Position numbers and translations under genes: made by a program. A DNA stretch of 64,000 nt from Steroidobacteraceae bacterium. Its GTDB lineage: Bacteria > Pseudomonadota > Gammaproteobacteria > Steroidobacterales > Steroidobacteraceae. Position 1 is the stretch's first letter. The number at the start of each line of letters is the position of its first letter. This document shows positions 4,900 to 11,186 of this stretch, one piece after another. Where the stretch lies: NCBI GenBank assembly GCA_019187495.1, contig JABAQN010000003.1, forward strand, positions 1 to 64,000, given 5' to 3'. The notes beneath the pieces were generated by a model that made no database searches, was not told where the DNA came from, and saw nothing but the letters and a program-made list of their open reading frames with translations.

Positions 4900-6480
4900 A
4901 TGCCTGGACTCATGCAGGACTGGCCGCTGACGCTCGACAAGGTCCTCGATCACGCCGCCCGCTGGCATGGCGATCGCGAAGTCGTCACGCGGCTGAACGA
5001 AGGGCCGATCACCCGCTGCACCTACGCGGATATACACCGACGCGCGAAACAGTTTTCGCACGCACTTCTCGGGCACGGCATCGCACGCGAGGACCGCATC
5101 GCGACGCTGGCCTTCAACTCGGCCCGCCACCTCGAGGCGTGGTACGGCATCATGGGGCTCGGCGCCGTCTGCCATACGCTGAATCCGCGCCTGCCGGTCG
5201 AGCAGCTCGCCTACATCGTCAATCACGCTGCGGACCGCCTGATCCTCGCGGACGCGCTGTGCACGCCGATCCTGCGGCAGCTCCTGCCGCGATGTCCCAC
5301 GATCGAGCGCGTGGTGCTGCTCGCCGACGAGGCGGAACTGCCGGCTGATTTCCCGGCGATTTCGTACGAGAGCTGGATCGCAGGGCGCGGCAGCGACTGC
5401 AAGTGGGGCGACTTTCCGGAGGACACCGCGGCGGGCCTCTGCTACACCTCGGGCACCACCGGCGATCCGAAGGGCGTGCTCTACTCGCACCGCTCGAACT
5501 ACCTGCACAGCCTCATCGCCCTGATGCCGGACGTGCTCGGTATCTCGGGTCGCGACGCGGTGCTCGCCATCGTGCCGATGTTCCACGCGAACGCCTGGGG
5601 CCTCGCATTTGCGGTGCCGGCGATCGGCGCGAAGTTCGTGCTGCCGGGCGCGAAGCTCGACGGCGCGTCCCTGTTCGACCTGATCGAGACCGAGGGCGTC
5701 ACGCTGTCGGCGGGCGTGCCCACCGTTTGGCAGGGGCTGCTGCAGTATCTCGAGAAGGAGCGCAAGCATCCCGCCACGTTGCAGCGCATCCTGACCGGTG
5801 GTGCGGCCTGTCCCGAATCGCTGGCGCGCGCTTACCAGGAAAGGCACGGCATCGAGGTGCGCCACGCGTGGGGCATGACGGAGATGTCGCCGATCGGTAC
5901 CGTGAATGTTCCGCCCGACCTCGCGACACCGGCGCTCAGGCAGGGTCGGGTGCCGTTCGGCATCGACATGATGCTCACCGATGACGCAGGGCGCGCGGTA
6001 GCGCACGACGGCAGGACGTTCGGACACCTCAAGGTGCGTGGCGCGGCAGTGGCGCGGGCCTATTTCAGGCGCGAGGCGGAGGACATCCTCGACGCGGACG
6101 GCTGGTTCGACACGGGCGATATCGCGACGATCGACGAAGCGGGTGCGCTGCAGATCACCGACCGCGCGAAGGATGTGATCAAGTCGGGCGGGGAGTGGAT
6201 CAGCTCGATCGACATCGAGAATGCCGCGGTGGCGCACCCGAAGGTCGCGCTCGCGGCCGTGATCGCGATACCGCACGCGAAGTGGGGCGAGCGGCCGCTG
6301 CTGATCGTGCAGCCGAAGGCCGGTGAGCCGGTGACGGCAGAGGAGCTGCTGGCCTTCCTCGAAGGCCGGATCGCACGCTGGTGGATGCCGGAAGCCGTGC
6401 AGTTCGTCGAGGCGATCCCGCTCGGCGCCACCGGCAAGATCGACAAGAAGCGGCTGCGGGCGGGCCTCGCGACGAACTGA
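4900..6480 (+). CDS. Fatty acyl-CoA ligase (AMP-forming, AlkK-like)
   Basis: ANL-superfamily ligase that adenylates a carboxylic acid and couples it to CoA. The 526 residues carry the P-loop CYTSGTTGDPKGVLYSH, the A5-type motif HAWGMTEMSPIGT, the A7/A8 motifs DGWFDTGDIATID and DRAKDVIKSGGEWIS, and the catalytic C-terminal lysine in ATGKIDKKRL. MFHANAWGLAF is typical of the medium/long-chain fatty acid group (AlkK and relatives). The gene begins 15 bp after lpd, so it is probably transcribed with the 2-oxoglutarate dehydrogenase genes, linking fatty acid activation to TCA-cycle expression. Chain length cannot be read from sequence. The next gene converges 3 bp away. Confidence 0.9.
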   Translation: MPGLMQDWPLTLDKVLDHAARWHGDREVVTRLNEGPITRCTYADIHRRAKQFSHALLGHGIAREDRIATLAFNSARHLEAWYGIMGLGAVCHTLNPRLPVEQLAYIVNHAADRLILADALCTPILRQLLPRCPTIERVVLLADEAELPADFPAISYESWIAGRGSDCKWGDFPEDTAAGLCYTSGTTGDPKGVLYSHRSNYLHSLIALMPDVLGISGRDAVLAIVPMFHANAWGLAFAVPAIGAKFVLPGAKLDGASLFDLIETEGVTLSAGVPTVWQGLLQYLEKERKHPATLQRILTGGAACPESLARAYQERHGIEVRHAWGMTEMSPIGTVNVPPDLATPALRQGRVPFGIDMMLTDDAGRAVAHDGRTFGHLKVRGAAVARAYFRREAEDILDADGWFDTGDIATIDEAGALQITDRAKDVIKSGGEWISSIDIENAAVAHPKVALAAVIAIPHAKWGERPLLIVQPKAGEPVTAEELLAFLEGRIARWWMPEAVQFVEAIPLGATGKIDKKRLRAGLATN

Positions 6481-6483
6481 AAC

Positions 6484-8415
6484 TTATTTGTCGAGCCGGA
6501 ACTCGAGGCGCACCCTGCCCGGATGGTCGACGGGCACGCCGTCTTCGCGGCGCGGATCGTAGCGCCACCGGCGCACGGCGGCGATGGCCTCGTCGTCGAA
6601 TACACCGGCGGGTGTGCTCTGGGTGACTGCGACGTCCCGCACCCGGCCGTCACTGCCGACCACGAATGCGAGGTCGACATGTCCCTCGATGTTCTTGCGG
6701 CGGGCCTCGTCCGGATAGCCGGGCTGCATGCCGCGCAGCAGTTTCATTTCCATGACAACAGGCGGCGGCCGATCCGGCGCCGCGCGTCGCGGCAAGGGTG
6801 CGGGCACGACGGGTTGCGGGCCTTCCTCGAGGGTCTTGCCAGCGAAGCTCACCGCGGTCAGCTTCGAAGGTCGCAGGTCGGTGGGAGATGCGACCGGGCG
6901 CGAGGGCACCTGTGCCGTGGGCGGTGACTCGCCGGCGGGTGCGGGCATTGTCGCGGGTGCCCCGGGCGGCGGGCCAGCCGGGCCCGTTGCCGGTGCCTGG
7001 GCCGGCGCGGTGTCGGTCGCGGGTGCGCCCGTTGCCTCGACGTGGAGCGTGACGCCCGGGGCGATCGATGTCGTTGCGGCGACGGGCCCCTCGGGCGGGG
7101 TGACGGCGAGCGTGCCGCTGGCAACTGGCGTGGAAGCGCGCGCGACGGATTCGGGTGCGCTCGATACAGCAGGTGTTGGCGCCGGAGCCGGAGTCGTGGC
7201 GCGTGAAAGTGGCGGCGGGGTGGCCGGCTGCGCAACGACCGCGACTTGCTGCGCGGGCGCATCCGCTGGCGCAGGCGTCGCGGGCGTGCGGGCGGGCTCG
7301 CCGTCACGCGAGAAGTAGAACCAGGCGGCGCCGAATGCGAGAAGACCCGCGACGGCGAGCGCCAGCGGCAGTGGCACACGCCCGGGATGGCGATCCGGCC
7401 GGGAACTGCGCGATGCAGGGCTGCGCGAGGCGGATCCCGCCCCCGGTGCCGGCCAATCGACGGTGCTGAGCGTGTGGCCACCGAGGCTCCTGACCGGATC
7501 GGCGAGCGCATCCTCATGGTCGATCGCGCGCACCGCGCGGGAAGGCGCAGGCGGCGCCGGCCGGGGTTCGATCGCTTCGGGCTCACGACCGCTGTTCAGC
7601 GTCTGCATGCGCAGCGCGGAATCGAGCACGAGGCGCATGCCCGCCTGCGTCACAGGCTTCGCGACGAAGCGGTTCACCACGCCTTCGCCGACCAGCGGTT
7701 CGAGCACCTGGCCATCGTTGCGCCGGCCGAGGGCGAGGAGCAGGGTCGACGGCGAGGCGCGATGCGCTTCGACGAACCAGTTGACCGGATCCATGCCGAG
7801 CGTACCGACGTCGATGAGCGCGAGCACGGGTTGGCGTGCGACGAGATCGGCACGCGCCTCGCCGGCGTCGCGCGCCGCGATGACCCGGTAGGGCTTGTCC
7901 GCAAGCGCGGCATTCGCACTCTCCGCTGCCGCGCTGTCGCGGGTCAGGAGCACGATCTGCGGCAATGACTCGAGGGGATGCTGTTCAGGCTCTTCGTCGA
8001 TCGCCGGCATGTCGGCGCCGAGCACGACGTTTTCGTACTCGCCCGAGAGCAGGTCGCCACGCTCGGCGATGGCGAGTGCCATGGCGGAGCGCAACTGCAT
8101 CGAGTCGAGCGGATAGCCGATCGTGTCGAAAAGCTTGAACGGCGTGAGGTGTGCGCCGAGCTTCTTCAGGCGCTCCGCGTCGGCGGCGAAGATCCGCAGC
8201 ACGTCCGGATGAGACATGCCCATCGTGGCGATGAGATCGAGACCGGAGCCGTCGGCGAGACGCTCGCAGGCGACGACGATGTCGCAGCCGCCCTCGCGCA
8301 GGCGCGCGAGGCAATCCTGTTTGCTCGTGACCTGCGCGCAGTCGATCAGGCCCTGCAGCGCACGCGCTGCGGCCGCCAGGACGGCTGGATCGTGATCCGC
8401 TAGAACGACTCTCAT
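6484..8415 (-). CDS. Receiver-like x2 / transmembrane / TonB C-terminal fusion protein
   Basis: A 643-residue protein with an unusual layout. Residues about 1-120 look like a response-regulator receiver (MRVVLADHDPAVL), but the phosphoacceptor position reads IVVACERL, with no Asp. A second receiver-like unit (about 150-275, IVLLTRDSAA) keeps an Asp in ALIDVGTLGMDP and a Lys in RFVAKPVT. One hydrophobic helix (LALAVAGLLAFGAAWFYF) follows, then some 180 residues of Pro/Ala/Thr-rich linker. A TonB-type C-terminal domain ends the protein (GYPDEARRKNIEGHVDLAF, RRWRYDPRRED). The order implies a cytoplasmic N-terminus, an inner-membrane anchor and a periplasm-spanning arm. No ExbB/ExbD lies next to it, although TolQR is about 5 kb away. 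Function unknown. It lies 76 bp downstream of relA on the same strand. Confidence 0.8.
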   Translation of the reverse strand: MRVVLADHDPAVLAAAARALQGLIDCAQVTSKQDCLARLREGGCDIVVACERLADGSGLDLIATMGMSHPDVLRIFAADAERLKKLGAHLTPFKLFDTIGYPLDSMQLRSAMALAIAERGDLLSGEYENVVLGADMPAIDEEPEQHPLESLPQIVLLTRDSAAAESANAALADKPYRVIAARDAGEARADLVARQPVLALIDVGTLGMDPVNWFVEAHRASPSTLLLALGRRNDGQVLEPLVGEGVVNRFVAKPVTQAGMRLVLDSALRMQTLNSGREPEAIEPRPAPPAPSRAVRAIDHEDALADPVRSLGGHTLSTVDWPAPGAGSASRSPASRSSRPDRHPGRVPLPLALAVAGLLAFGAAWFYFSRDGEPARTPATPAPADAPAQQVAVVAQPATPPPLSRATTPAPAPTPAVSSAPESVARASTPVASGTLAVTPPEGPVAATTSIAPGVTLHVEATGAPATDTAPAQAPATGPAGPPPGAPATMPAPAGESPPTAQVPSRPVASPTDLRPSKLTAVSFAGKTLEEGPQPVVPAPLPRRAAPDRPPPVVMEMKLLRGMQPGYPDEARRKNIEGHVDLAFVVGSDGRVRDVAVTQSTPAGVFDDEAIAAVRRWRYDPRREDGVPVDHPGRVRLEFRLDK

Positions 8416-8491
8416 CGGACTCCCTAATTACCTGCCTGCCGCGCCGGGGACTCCGTCATATGTCACGAAATCGGATGCTGCGTCGCACAAT

Positions 8492-10600
8492 TCACCGGGT
8501 TCGACGTGTACTCAACACGTTAGGCACCTTTTCCAGACGCTGTGTCACGCGCGCCAGGTCGCCGAGGTCGTGGATGTCGATGCGCAGCACGGTGGTCGCC
8601 GTGCCCTCGCCGCGCTGTGTGGTCGTCGACAATGAGTCGAGCCGCAAGCGTTCACTCGCGATCACGTCGGTGAGGTCGCGCACGAGGGCGCGCCGGTCGA
8701 GCCCGACGACCGTGATCTCGACGCTCTGCGTGAGTCCCTCGCCCTGCGTCCACTGGCAGTCGAGCACACGTTCCGGTCGGGTGGCGCGCATGCGGGTGAG
8801 CGATGCGCAATTCGCGCGATGCACGGTCACGCCCCGGCCTACGGTGACGTAGCCGACGATCGGTTGCGGCCGCACGGGCGCACAGCAGCGCGCGAGCGTG
8901 ATCGGCAGGTCGCCGACTCCCTCGATCGCCACCGGCGAACTGCGACTTCCAGGCGCGCGCGGGCGCGGTGCGGGGCGCGCCGGTGCCGGCGCGCTCACGC
9001 GCCCGAGGGCCTGTGCGAGTTGCGTTGCCGTGATCTCGCCTTCGCCCACCAGTCGATGGAGCGTATCGGCATCCGGTGCCTTCAGTTCCTGCACGAGTGC
9101 CGCGAGCAACCCTGCACCGGCCGGAAAGCGGGCGAGTTCGCGATCGACGGCGGCGCGACCGGCGAGGCGATTGTCGGCCTCGCCCTGGCGGCGGAACCAG
9201 GCTCGCACCCGCGAACGATTGCGCGCGGAGGCGAGATACCCCTGTTCGGGCGCCATCCAGTCACGGCTCGGCGACAGCGCCTTGCCGGTGATGATCTCGA
9301 CGACCTCGCCGTTCGCGAGCCGATGGGTGAGCGGCACGATACGCCCGTTCACCTTCGCGCCGCGGCAGCGGTGCCCGAGGTCGGTGTGCAGGTGATAGGC
9401 GAAGTCGAGTGGTGTCGCGGCGCGCGGCAGGTCGACCACTTCGCCCTTCGGCGTGAGGGCATAGATGCGGTCGGCGAACAATCCCGCCTGCACCCGGTCG
9501 AGGAAGTCATCGCCGTCGCGCTGGCCGCGGCCGGGCGCGAGCAGCGAACGGACGGCTTCGACCTTGCGCGCGTAGTCGGCGTCGCGCACGCCGCCTTCCT
9601 TGTAGTGCCAGTGCGCGGCGACGCCGAGTTCGGCCTGCTCGTGCATCTGCTGCGTGCGGATCTGCACCTCGACCGCTTTCGCCTCCGGCCCGATGACGGC
9701 CGTGTGGATCGAGCGGTAATTGTTGCCCTTGGGCGTCGCGATGTAGTCATCGAATTCACCCGGGATGTACGGCCAGCGGCCATGCACGACCCCGAGCGCC
9801 GCGTAGCAGGCCGGAATGTCCGCGCACACGATGCGCACGGCGCGCACGTCGAAGATGCGTTCGAAATCGAGCTGCTTGCGCTGCATTTTCCGGTGGATGC
9901 TGTAGATGTGCTTGGGGCGCCCGTAGACCTCGGCATCGATCCCCGCCGCGGCGAGCTCGCCGCGCAGCTCGCGGCAAAGCGCCTCGATGTAGCGCTCGCG
10001 CGCCTCGCGCTTCTCGTTGAGTGCCGTCGCGATGCGCTTGTAGCCCGCGGGATTTCGCAGCCGGAAAGCGAGATCCTCGAGCTCCCATTTCAGTTGCCAG
10101 ACCCCGAGCCGGTTGGCGAGCGGCGCGAAAATCTCCCGCGTTTCGGTGGCTATCCGGGTCTGCTCCGCGGGCGGCAGGTCGCGGGCGGCGCGCAGCGCCA
10201 CGAGCTGGATCGCGAGCCTTGCGAGCACGAGGCGTGGATCGCTGACGATCGCGAGCAGCATCTTGCGCAGCGTCTCGGCCTGGCGTGCGTCGAGCCCGCG
10301 TTCGGGCTGCCACTCGCGCGGCAGCCCGAGTTCACCGAGCGCCTCGAGTGCGCGCGCGAGTGCGGCGGCGCGCTCGCCCGCAATCCGCGCCCGCGCCGCT
10401 GCGTGCTCTTCGCCGGGCAGTGCGCTGTAGGCGAGCGTGCCGAGCGTGAGTGTCGCGTCGCCGGTCAGCGCACCGACGATTTCCGCGGCCGCCGTGCCGC
10501 GCGCGAGCGGTTCGTCGCGCGCACCCGCGTCGTGCAGCGCGTGTCCGATGCGCTCGATGTCGGTGGCGAGGGCGGATGGGCAGTGAAATGCGGTATCCAC
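8492..10600 (-). CDS. relA: RelA-type (p)ppGpp synthetase
   Basis: Ribosome-associated alarmone synthetase of the stringent response, 702 residues from a GTG start. The N-terminal HD-hydrolase region is degenerate. The synthetase core reads YGRPKHIYSIHRKMQRK, FDVRAVRIV, EFDDYIATPKGNNYRSIHT and VEIQIRT-like VEVQIRTQQMHEQAELG. The EFDD motif is the ExDD signature of synthetase-only RelA rather than the RxKD of bifunctional SpoT. A TGS domain (YALTPKGEVVDLPRAATPLDF), a Cys-containing region (ITLARCCAPVRPQPIVGYV) and a C-terminal ACT domain (VEITVVGLDRRALVRDLTD) follow. It is divergent from the yebC-like gene with 52 bp between. Confidence 0.93.
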   Translation of the reverse strand: MDTAFHCPSALATDIERIGHALHDAGARDEPLARGTAAAEIVGALTGDATLTLGTLAYSALPGEEHAAARARIAGERAAALARALEALGELGLPREWQPERGLDARQAETLRKMLLAIVSDPRLVLARLAIQLVALRAARDLPPAEQTRIATETREIFAPLANRLGVWQLKWELEDLAFRLRNPAGYKRIATALNEKREARERYIEALCRELRGELAAAGIDAEVYGRPKHIYSIHRKMQRKQLDFERIFDVRAVRIVCADIPACYAALGVVHGRWPYIPGEFDDYIATPKGNNYRSIHTAVIGPEAKAVEVQIRTQQMHEQAELGVAAHWHYKEGGVRDADYARKVEAVRSLLAPGRGQRDGDDFLDRVQAGLFADRIYALTPKGEVVDLPRAATPLDFAYHLHTDLGHRCRGAKVNGRIVPLTHRLANGEVVEIITGKALSPSRDWMAPEQGYLASARNRSRVRAWFRRQGEADNRLAGRAAVDRELARFPAGAGLLAALVQELKAPDADTLHRLVGEGEITATQLAQALGRVSAPAPARPAPRPRAPGSRSSPVAIEGVGDLPITLARCCAPVRPQPIVGYVTVGRGVTVHRANCASLTRMRATRPERVLDCQWTQGEGLTQSVEITVVGLDRRALVRDLTDVIASERLRLDSLSTTTQRGEGTATTVLRIDIHDLGDLARVTQRLEKVPNVLSTRRTR

Positions 10601-10652
10601 GAAGCGAGCCCGGCGGGTCCGGCTTTCCGAATCGGGTTATCATACCGATCGC

Positions 10653-11186
10653 ATGGCGGGACACAGCAAACGAGCCGATTTGCAGGCGGCACGCTTCGAA
10701 GGCTACGGCCCGGGCGGCTCGGCCGTGATGCTCGACTGCCTCACCGATAACCGTGAACGCACGGCCGCGGCGGTACGCCAGGCGTTTGCGAACCACGGAG
10801 GCCACCTCGGTGCGGACGGTTCAGTGTCGTATCTTTTCCAGCAGGTGGGGGTGCTCGGCTTCGCACCGGGCTCCGACGAGGATGCCGTGACGGATGCCGC
10901 GCTCGATGCGGGCGCGGAGGACGTCGTCGTGCGCCCGGACGGTACACTCGAAGCGCTGACCGCGCCCGCCGATCTCGATGCAGTGCGCGGCGCACTCGCC
11001 CGCCGCGGCTTTGTGGCGCTCAGGCGCGAGATCACCCAGCGCTCGGCAACGAGCGCCGTGCTCGAGCACGGAGCCGCGGTGACGCTGCTCGGACTGCTCG
11101 CGGCGCTCGAACGCCTCGAGGGCGTACAACACGTGTATTCGAATGCGGAAATTCCGGACGACGTCCTGGCGCGCATACCGGCCTGA
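10653..11186 (+). CDS. YebC/PmpR-family protein lacking the N-terminal domain
   Basis: The 177 residues begin with the invariant YebC N-terminus MAGHSK, then jump at once to ARFEGYGPGGSAVMLDCLTD, which in ordinary YebC (about 240-250 residues) lies near residue 80. Domain I, the helical module with its basic patch, is therefore absent, while domains II and III are intact through the conserved end ([14 protein letters not shown]). Family members act as transcription regulators or translation factors; whether this short form works is unknown. The position directly before ruvC is the usual one for yebC. The 3' end overlaps the likely ruvC start by 44 bp. There is no frameshift or stop, so it is a clean in-frame deletion. 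Confidence 0.85.
   Translation: MAGHSKRADLQAARFEGYGPGGSAVMLDCLTDNRERTAAAVRQAFANHGGHLGADGSVSYLFQQVGVLGFAPGSDEDAVTDAALDAGAEDVVVRPDGTLEALTAPADLDAVRGALARRGFVALRREITQRSATSAVLEHGAAVTLLGLLAALERLEGVQHVYSNAEIPDDVLARIPA

Follow-up and report, generated by a model that had tools for sequence, protein, structure and literature searches.

A relA-linked protein joining two pseudo-receivers to a TonB_C domain belongs to an apparently undescribed family common to related bacteria

One gene encodes two receivers, a membrane helix and a TonB_C domain

The DNA analysed here, called the window below, is a stretch of 64,000 nucleotides from a Steroidobacteraceae bacterium (assembly GCA_019187495.1, contig JABAQN010000003.1, positions 1 to 64,000 of the forward strand). 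Within it, one open frame of 643 amino acids occupies positions 6484-8415 on the minus strand. The locus has the following layout:

8492..10600, minus strand: RelA-type GTP diphosphokinase gene, directly upstream (Pfam and NCBIfam)
6484..8415, minus strand: whole target gene, 643 amino acids (pseudo-receiver 1, pseudo-receiver 2, membrane helix, Pro/Ala arm, TonB_C)
8047..8415, minus strand: receiver 1, residues 1-123, Asp-less (HupR profile match, AlphaFold2 fold, residue table)
7591..7959, minus strand: receiver 2, residues 153-275 (3hv2 profile match, AlphaFold2 fold, residue table)
7315..7377, minus strand: predicted membrane helix, residues 347-367, without Ser-xxx-His (hydropathy and charge)
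6751..7311, minus strand: Pro/Ala arm, residues 369-555 (composition)
6484..6750, minus strand: TonB_C domain, residues 556-643, with the stop codon (Pfam, TonB2 match, AlphaFold2)

The original prediction had proposed this order of receiver, receiver, helix, arm and TonB_C, and it was borne out by Pfam, profile searches, AlphaFold2 and hydropathy. On the whole protein, the Pfam Response_reg model narrowly missed its cut-off of 30.2 bits (8.9e-7, 29.5 bits over two stretches). When residues 2-272 were scanned alone, it exceeded the cut-off (4.5e-8, 33.7 bits), so that a profile search did find receiver folds in residues 1-280. Structure prediction of the N-terminal part agreed with the proposal: AlphaFold2, run with 14 sequences, modelled two full five-strand/five-helix (beta-alpha)5 receivers at residues 2-123 and 153-275 (mean pLDDT 78.5), with an uncertain mutual placement (pTM 0.48). 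Foldseek searches with the receiver model matched HupR (2jk1, TMt 0.75), 3hv2_A (0.78) and FrzS (2i6f_A, 0.80). The best match of the receiver pair was the tandem-receiver protein PleD (3.1e-11), and its TMq of 0.41 and rmsd of 12 Å indicate that the relative placement of the two receivers in the target is not matched.

An orthologue of the target was present in all seven genomes of the genus that we examined, the other six at 62-73% identity, which rules out a fusion created by misassembly or chance. In three of these genomes (G002, G003 and G005) the orthologue is broken by contig ends, and the TonB_C matches lie on separate contigs. Neither Pfam nor NCBIfam holds a model that covers the full receiver-receiver-helix-TonB_C architecture. 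AGGGAG precedes the ATG of the target. A scan of positions 6300-8700 found no promoter-like site and one terminator-like site, on the opposite strand, which is roughly at chance level.

The helix and arm show few signs of energy coupling

TonB_C proteins are usually read as energy transducers for transporters. The single hydrophobic helix of the target (residues ~347-367, mean KD 1.79) has a net charge of +3 on its N-terminal side and 0 on its C-terminal side, which suits a cytoplasmic N-terminus. It is followed by the arm, in which 44 Pro and 40 Ala make up much of the 187 residues, and by a clear TonB_C domain: the Pfam model matched at 1.5e-21, the region matched TonB2 (2k9k) at 4.9e-15, and AlphaFold2 modelled it well, with blocks from model residue 41 onward at pLDDT 85-96. 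By eye, a repeat stretch just after the helix is present in several genus orthologues (L012, L013, L059 and L060) and absent from the target and from its sister genome G001. Because TPR matches stayed below the Pfam cut-offs wherever we scanned, we call these repeats TPR-like.

We considered whether the target might be a specialised, signal-gated TonB, in which the helix would couple to ExbBD or TolQR, the proton-motive force would drive the arm and the receivers would switch the coupling. An excerpt of PMC12215075 describes the residues that make such contacts in E. coli, Ser16/His20 of TonB with ExbB and Ser18/His22 of TolA with TolQ. We looked for this Ser/His pair in the target helix and found no Ser-xxx-His. 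The same was true of 26 receiver-TonB_C rows, none of which had a His in the helix or a Ser-xxx-His around it (L016 and L039 are one protein in this count, and the duplicate or cut rows L072, L074-L077, L079, L080 and L083 were left out). Receiver-less TonB_C proteins of relatives (L033 and L035-L038) also have His-less helices, so the loss of His is not peculiar to the receiver-TonB_C proteins and is no proof of uncoupling. The D-box, described in part of PMC10907165 as a beta-strand after the TonB helix that binds ExbD, has a possible counterpart in a beta-prone octet of the target (QQVAVVAQ, residues 389-396). This stretch was recognized by eye in the target only and is absent from L010 and L012, which may speak against a gated TonB.

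An ExbD search of the window's genome found no ExbD match adjoining the target gene. The genome holds five ExbD-family genes, one of which (tolR) lies ~6 kb from the target within the window, and in f158 the relative L203 has two ExbD genes at a distance of 3-4 kb; both observations fit a gated TonB, as does the clear TonB_C domain. So do the 50 plug domains over the cut-off, among 52 listed, which offer possible docking partners for TonB_C. Against it, contig C8 encodes a separate TonB candidate (L003) whose helix contains a His and which lies within ~1.5 kb of two ExbD genes. Taken together, we regard a signal-gated TonB as unlikely. The original prediction had spoken of an energy-transducing arm, and this wording failed on the missing Ser-xxx-His, the absence of His from all 26 rows and the lack of an adjoining ExbD match. 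As judged from the sequence, energy transduction by the target protein is not supported.

Both receivers lack active-site residues

Excerpts of PMC12632262 define a phosphorylatable receiver by five active-site residues (two acidic residues, an Asp, a Thr/Ser and a Lys) and a pseudo-receiver as a receiver fold that misses one or more of the five; they describe the switching mechanism of pseudo-receivers as an open question. Receiver 1 of the target keeps one of the five residues and receiver 2 keeps only the Asp and the Lys, so both are pseudo-receivers by this definition, as far as the excerpts give it.

A receiver 1 profile of nine sequences matched the HupR receiver at 8e-8. Four of the five active-site residues are gone from the target: Cys50 stands at the acceptor position, Tyr101 in place of the Lys, Ala78 in place of the Thr/Ser and His8 at the second acidic position, and the first acidic residue, Asp7, is kept. 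In 14 rows aligned to HupR, the acceptor position was Cys in 11, Thr in two, Gly in one and Asp in none, which upholds the claim of a degenerate first receiver without a phosphoacceptor. The Lys was replaced by Tyr in every row, the Thr/Ser by Ala in 12 (Ile and Val in the other two) and the second acidic residue by His in nine, Gln in four and Arg in one; the first acidic residue was kept in all 14. The motif ACERxxDGSGL was identical across the nine rows of alignment A2. That the receiver stays conserved after losing its catalytic residues suggests a surface used for binding. Receiver 1 is also rare. At 1e-15 it was found in one of 369 class genomes, the window's own. At 1e-10 it matched 14 of 150 family genomes, or 13 once G425 (1.3e-11) had been rejected, its sequence being that of an NtrC-type regulator. 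The collection scan that gave 13 of the receiver 1 loci compared below was run with the receiver 1 alignment; the whole-family alignment was too diverse.

Receiver 2 alone scored weakly in Pfam (0.022), and a profile of the target and 15 relatives (A3) matched the solved receiver 3hv2 at 1.3e-14. Because three of these 16 sequences come from the genus, the target's own A3 score is inflated, and independent support comes from the search with the target alone, described below. In the target, Asp202 and Lys253 are present, as had been noted from the sequence. Thr158 and Arg159 occupy the positions of the acidic pair, with Asp160 next to them, and Gly230 that of the Thr/Ser. The second receiver with Asp and Lys was correctly observed, but it lacks the usual metal site. 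We compiled these positions in 48 rows of the wider family, eight of them from the genus, with some rows partly duplicating others. The Asp was present in all 47 rows that have a letter at that position and the Lys in 44 of 48. The first acidic residue was Thr or Ser in all 44 rows with a letter, the second position was acidic (Glu) in one of 44, and the Thr/Ser was Gly in 48 of 48. On these residues we rejected the reading of receiver 2 as a regular receiver. Two features count against a pseudo-receiver. An Asp directly after the lost acidic pair, Asp160 in the target, was present in 43 of 44 rows and might in theory contribute to the metal site, and the conservation of the Asp and the Lys would be odd if phosphorylation were irrelevant. 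In a receiver 2 tree, the genus sat on a long branch (length 2.8) without a settled place. The receiver found in paralogous receiver-helix-(TPR-like)-TonB_C proteins is similar to receiver 2, which the genus has either acquired or kept while its relatives lost it.

The same domain order recurs in related bacteria

Searching with the target alone, we found that the receiver 2 region matched, among the matches listed, receivers of genomes G009, G033, G034, G055 and G013. TonB_C lies in the same frame in four of these five and is missing from the frame in G033. The receiver 2 profile matched 67 of 196 order genomes at 1e-22, 20 of 274 class genomes at 1e-14 (over 130 bits only in the window's genome and G041, with a next best of 77) and, at 1e-20, one of 398 phylum genomes, again the window's own. 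Of 20 order loci fetched, 16 encode a receiver, a helix and TonB_C in one frame, with two receivers in ten (L152-L160 and L163) and one in six (L161, L162, L164, L165, L167 and L171). The other four lack the full order: L166 is receiver-helix and L168-L170 are receiver-receiver. Single-receiver versions of the receiver-helix-TonB_C order are common.

The full two-receiver order was present in 11 of the 11 loci of family f7 examined with strong matches, namely the nine fetched loci L152-L160 together with L043 and L049; the count leaves out three weaker or short-frame matches (G652:C106, G627:C21 and G630:C51). The 11 proteins are 915-1127 amino acids long, and all carry Ala at the acceptor of the first receiver. 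For L043, the Pfam match covers two receiver stretches (53.9 bits). Another f7 locus, L107, encodes two receivers with no TonB_C in the frame. The neighbours of L043 and L049, judged by eye, are housekeeping genes and not signalling genes. We also examined L163 for an Asp-less first receiver and rejected it, its Asp being kept. With the same order in the 11 f7 loci and L163, the architecture of the target is not unique. The original prediction knew of no named family with this order, which holds for the libraries and literature searched; the order itself is less exceptional than it had seemed.

Searching beyond the order, and from the other end of the protein, we found TonB_C matches at 1e-14 in 104 of 369 class genomes and took 30 loci. 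A receiver lay in the stretch for three of the 30 (the window's own, L174 and L191), and the receivers of L178 fall outside its stretch. In the genus of L191, three of three stretches encode a receiver of divergent sequence, then a helix recognized by eye, TPR-like repeats and TonB_C; the receiver profile gave 29-34 bits and TonB_C 69-72 bits, and Pfam itself reports no receiver. L175 (G422:C8), also outside the order, is a helix-TPR-like-TonB_C protein with no receiver match, and is possibly a receiver-less relative of the receiver-helix-TonB_C family. The target combines a cytoplasmic pseudo-receiver, a single helix and TonB_C within one frame, and is a member of what is apparently an undescribed family common to related bacteria.

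Several relatives lie beside signalling genes

On contig C18 of the window's genome, locus L056 (7890-12660) encodes a helix-TPR-like-TonB_C protein of 589 amino acids, followed by genes for a CheA-like Hpt/HATPase kinase, CheY and CheX. Its N-terminus is receiver-like by eye only, and no profile reported a receiver. This compact signalling cluster is of separate interest. Genes for an Hpt/HATPase kinase, CheY and CheX also adjoin the receiver-helix genes of L040, L045 and L051; that of L045 has no TonB_C in its frame. A further receiver-helix gene (receiver 137 bits) lies downstream of GspA- and GspB-like genes on contig C36, which ends within it, so that any TonB_C would lie beyond the contig end. 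Its complete counterpart in sister genome G001, L149, encodes 671 amino acids, with a receiver at 134 bits and TonB_C at 111 bits. Receiver-TonB_C genes are adjoined by receiver-Ser/Thr-kinase genes in four stretches, each of which also holds a GspB gene:

L050:8012-9319, receiver-Ser/Thr-kinase gene
L054:275-1606, receiver-Ser/Thr-kinase gene
L149:8283-9707, receiver-Ser/Thr-kinase gene
L150:4832-6277, receiver-Ser/Thr-kinase gene

The target could alternatively be a true response regulator, with a kinase, CheA-like or otherwise, that phosphorylates Asp202 of receiver 2 and with the TonB_C arm as the output. The kinase, CheY and CheX genes beside L040, L045, L051 and L056 fit this explanation, as do the conserved Asp and Lys of receiver 2 and the Asp after its lost acidic pair. 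We nonetheless consider it improbable, given the near-complete loss of the acidic pair and the complete loss of the Thr/Ser across the family, and a direct neighbour that is relA and not a kinase gene. The two-component-type input that had been proposed is likewise not upheld: both receivers lack defining residues, though relatives adjoin CheA-like, CheY and CheX genes.

Receiver 1 is linked to relA

The enzyme encoded upstream of the target belongs to the RelA/SpoT family of GTP diphosphokinases (Pfam and NCBIfam). We found relA directly upstream, on the same strand, in 14 of 14 receiver 1 loci, comprising 13 from the receiver 1 scan (six of them, L059-L064, in the genus) and L039 of G016; in this count, L062 matches relA residues 265-701 only and the contig of L067 starts inside relA. 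The gap between the relA stop and the target start is 76 bp in the window, and the largest among the other loci is ~440 bp (L067). An lpd gene lies downstream in nine of the 14; in L059, L060 and L063 the contig runs out, and other genes take its place in L065 and L066. Beside relA in the window, a YebC-like gene (10593-11186, plus strand) lacks residues ~32-102 of the intact YebC of the sister genome (L064), with its flanks in frame. The N-terminal part of YebC had no match in L060, L065, L066 and L071, and L059, L061, L063 and L064 match nearly throughout. Elsewhere in the window's genome there is one YebC N-domain, at C2:107703.

The protein encoded behind relA varies. It is receiver 1 alone in L071 (120 amino acids), receiver 1 with a tail in L067 (298 amino acids) and receiver 1-helix-arm-TonB_C without receiver 2 in L039, L065, L066, L068, L069 and L070. 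In the genus loci, receiver 2 sits in the linker of this last arrangement. A TonB_C tree grouped the genus with L039, L068 and L069 (85/77), and placed these in a larger group with other receiver 1 proteins and also L027 and L032 (81/88), both with modest support; rows with fewer than 77 aligned residues and L004, L005, L007, L072, L076 and L079 were left out. These comparisons suggest that the shared core of the locus is receiver 1 and its linkage to relA.

The linkage to relA may reflect gene order alone. It also bears on an outside-in explanation, in which TonB_C would sense the state of the outer membrane or cell wall and the receivers would inform cytoplasmic partners, perhaps the RelA enzyme encoded upstream. 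The position of relA in all 14 loci fits such a role. Against it, this is a matter of gene order, and lpd is a conserved neighbour too, one that gives no function. TonB_C is not known to serve as a sensor input, and we consider this explanation very unlikely. A neutral fusion without joint function, which the frequent gain and loss of domains at the relA locus might suggest (L071, L067 and the six loci without receiver 2), is barely credible for an architecture kept in all seven genus genomes examined and found in the same order in all 11 strong-match f7 loci examined.

Discussion

Our favoured explanation, which we put forward tentatively, is that the target acts as a signal-responsive tether across the envelope, worked by protein docking and not by phosphorylation or proton-motive force. 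The sequence predicts two cytoplasmic receiver folds, one membrane helix, a periplasmic Pro/Ala arm and a TonB_C domain at its far end. Docking of a partner protein, or pairing of the two receivers, would take the place of Asp phosphorylation as the switch. The bound state might then alter the position of the protein in the inner membrane or the clustering of its copies, and this in turn could set where TonB_C engages a TonB-box protein or another outer-membrane target. Drive by ExbBD or TolQR seems unlikely. In this way, intracellular signals may act on the outer layers of the cell through the target.

A broader possibility, which we hold more loosely than the tether itself, is an undescribed trans-envelope class, with a periplasmic arm that is tipped by TonB_C, uncoupled from ExbBD and under the control of pseudo-receivers in the cytoplasm. 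Three kinds would occur in one genus: one behind relA, one beside the CheA-like/CheY/CheX cluster and one adjoining a receiver-Ser/Thr-kinase gene downstream of GspB. Through such direct mechanical or positional linkage, different signals from inside the cell might reach the outer membrane with no transcriptional step. If this is true, a TonB_C family with pseudo-receivers would connect cytoplasmic signalling physically and directly to the outer membrane, and pseudo-receivers would gain a testable output. A TonB_C match in these genomes would then not be sufficient ground for annotating an energy transducer.

A literature search for TonB together with receiver domains, made at the level of titles and abstracts, with few subscription journals and main articles without supplements, found no such fusion. 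The closest known systems each share part of the design. The TonB energy transducer (PF03544; E. coli TonB) resembles the target in its C-terminal domain and in the single helix before a proline-rich arm, whereas the target has ~346 residues with two receivers before its helix, no Ser-xxx-His and no adjoining ExbD match. PleD also carries two receivers in tandem, but the target has no GGDEF domain and its two-receiver arrangement does not superpose. Also close are the unnamed receiver-helix-(TPR-like)-TonB_C proteins (L040, L041, L043, L050, L055 and others), which share the cytoplasmic pseudo-receiver, the helix and TonB_C; unlike the target, they have no receiver 1, carry TPR-like repeats and have neighbours other than relA. 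Pseudo-receivers such as FrzS, as described in parts of PMC1974792, PMC4395418 and PMC12632262, keep the fold without the acceptor Asp, as receiver 1 does, and receiver 2 is alike in its lost metal site. The main texts of PMC12632262 and PMC4395418 do not mention TonB. What sets the target apart from these known pseudo-receivers is its output, a membrane helix and a TonB_C domain.
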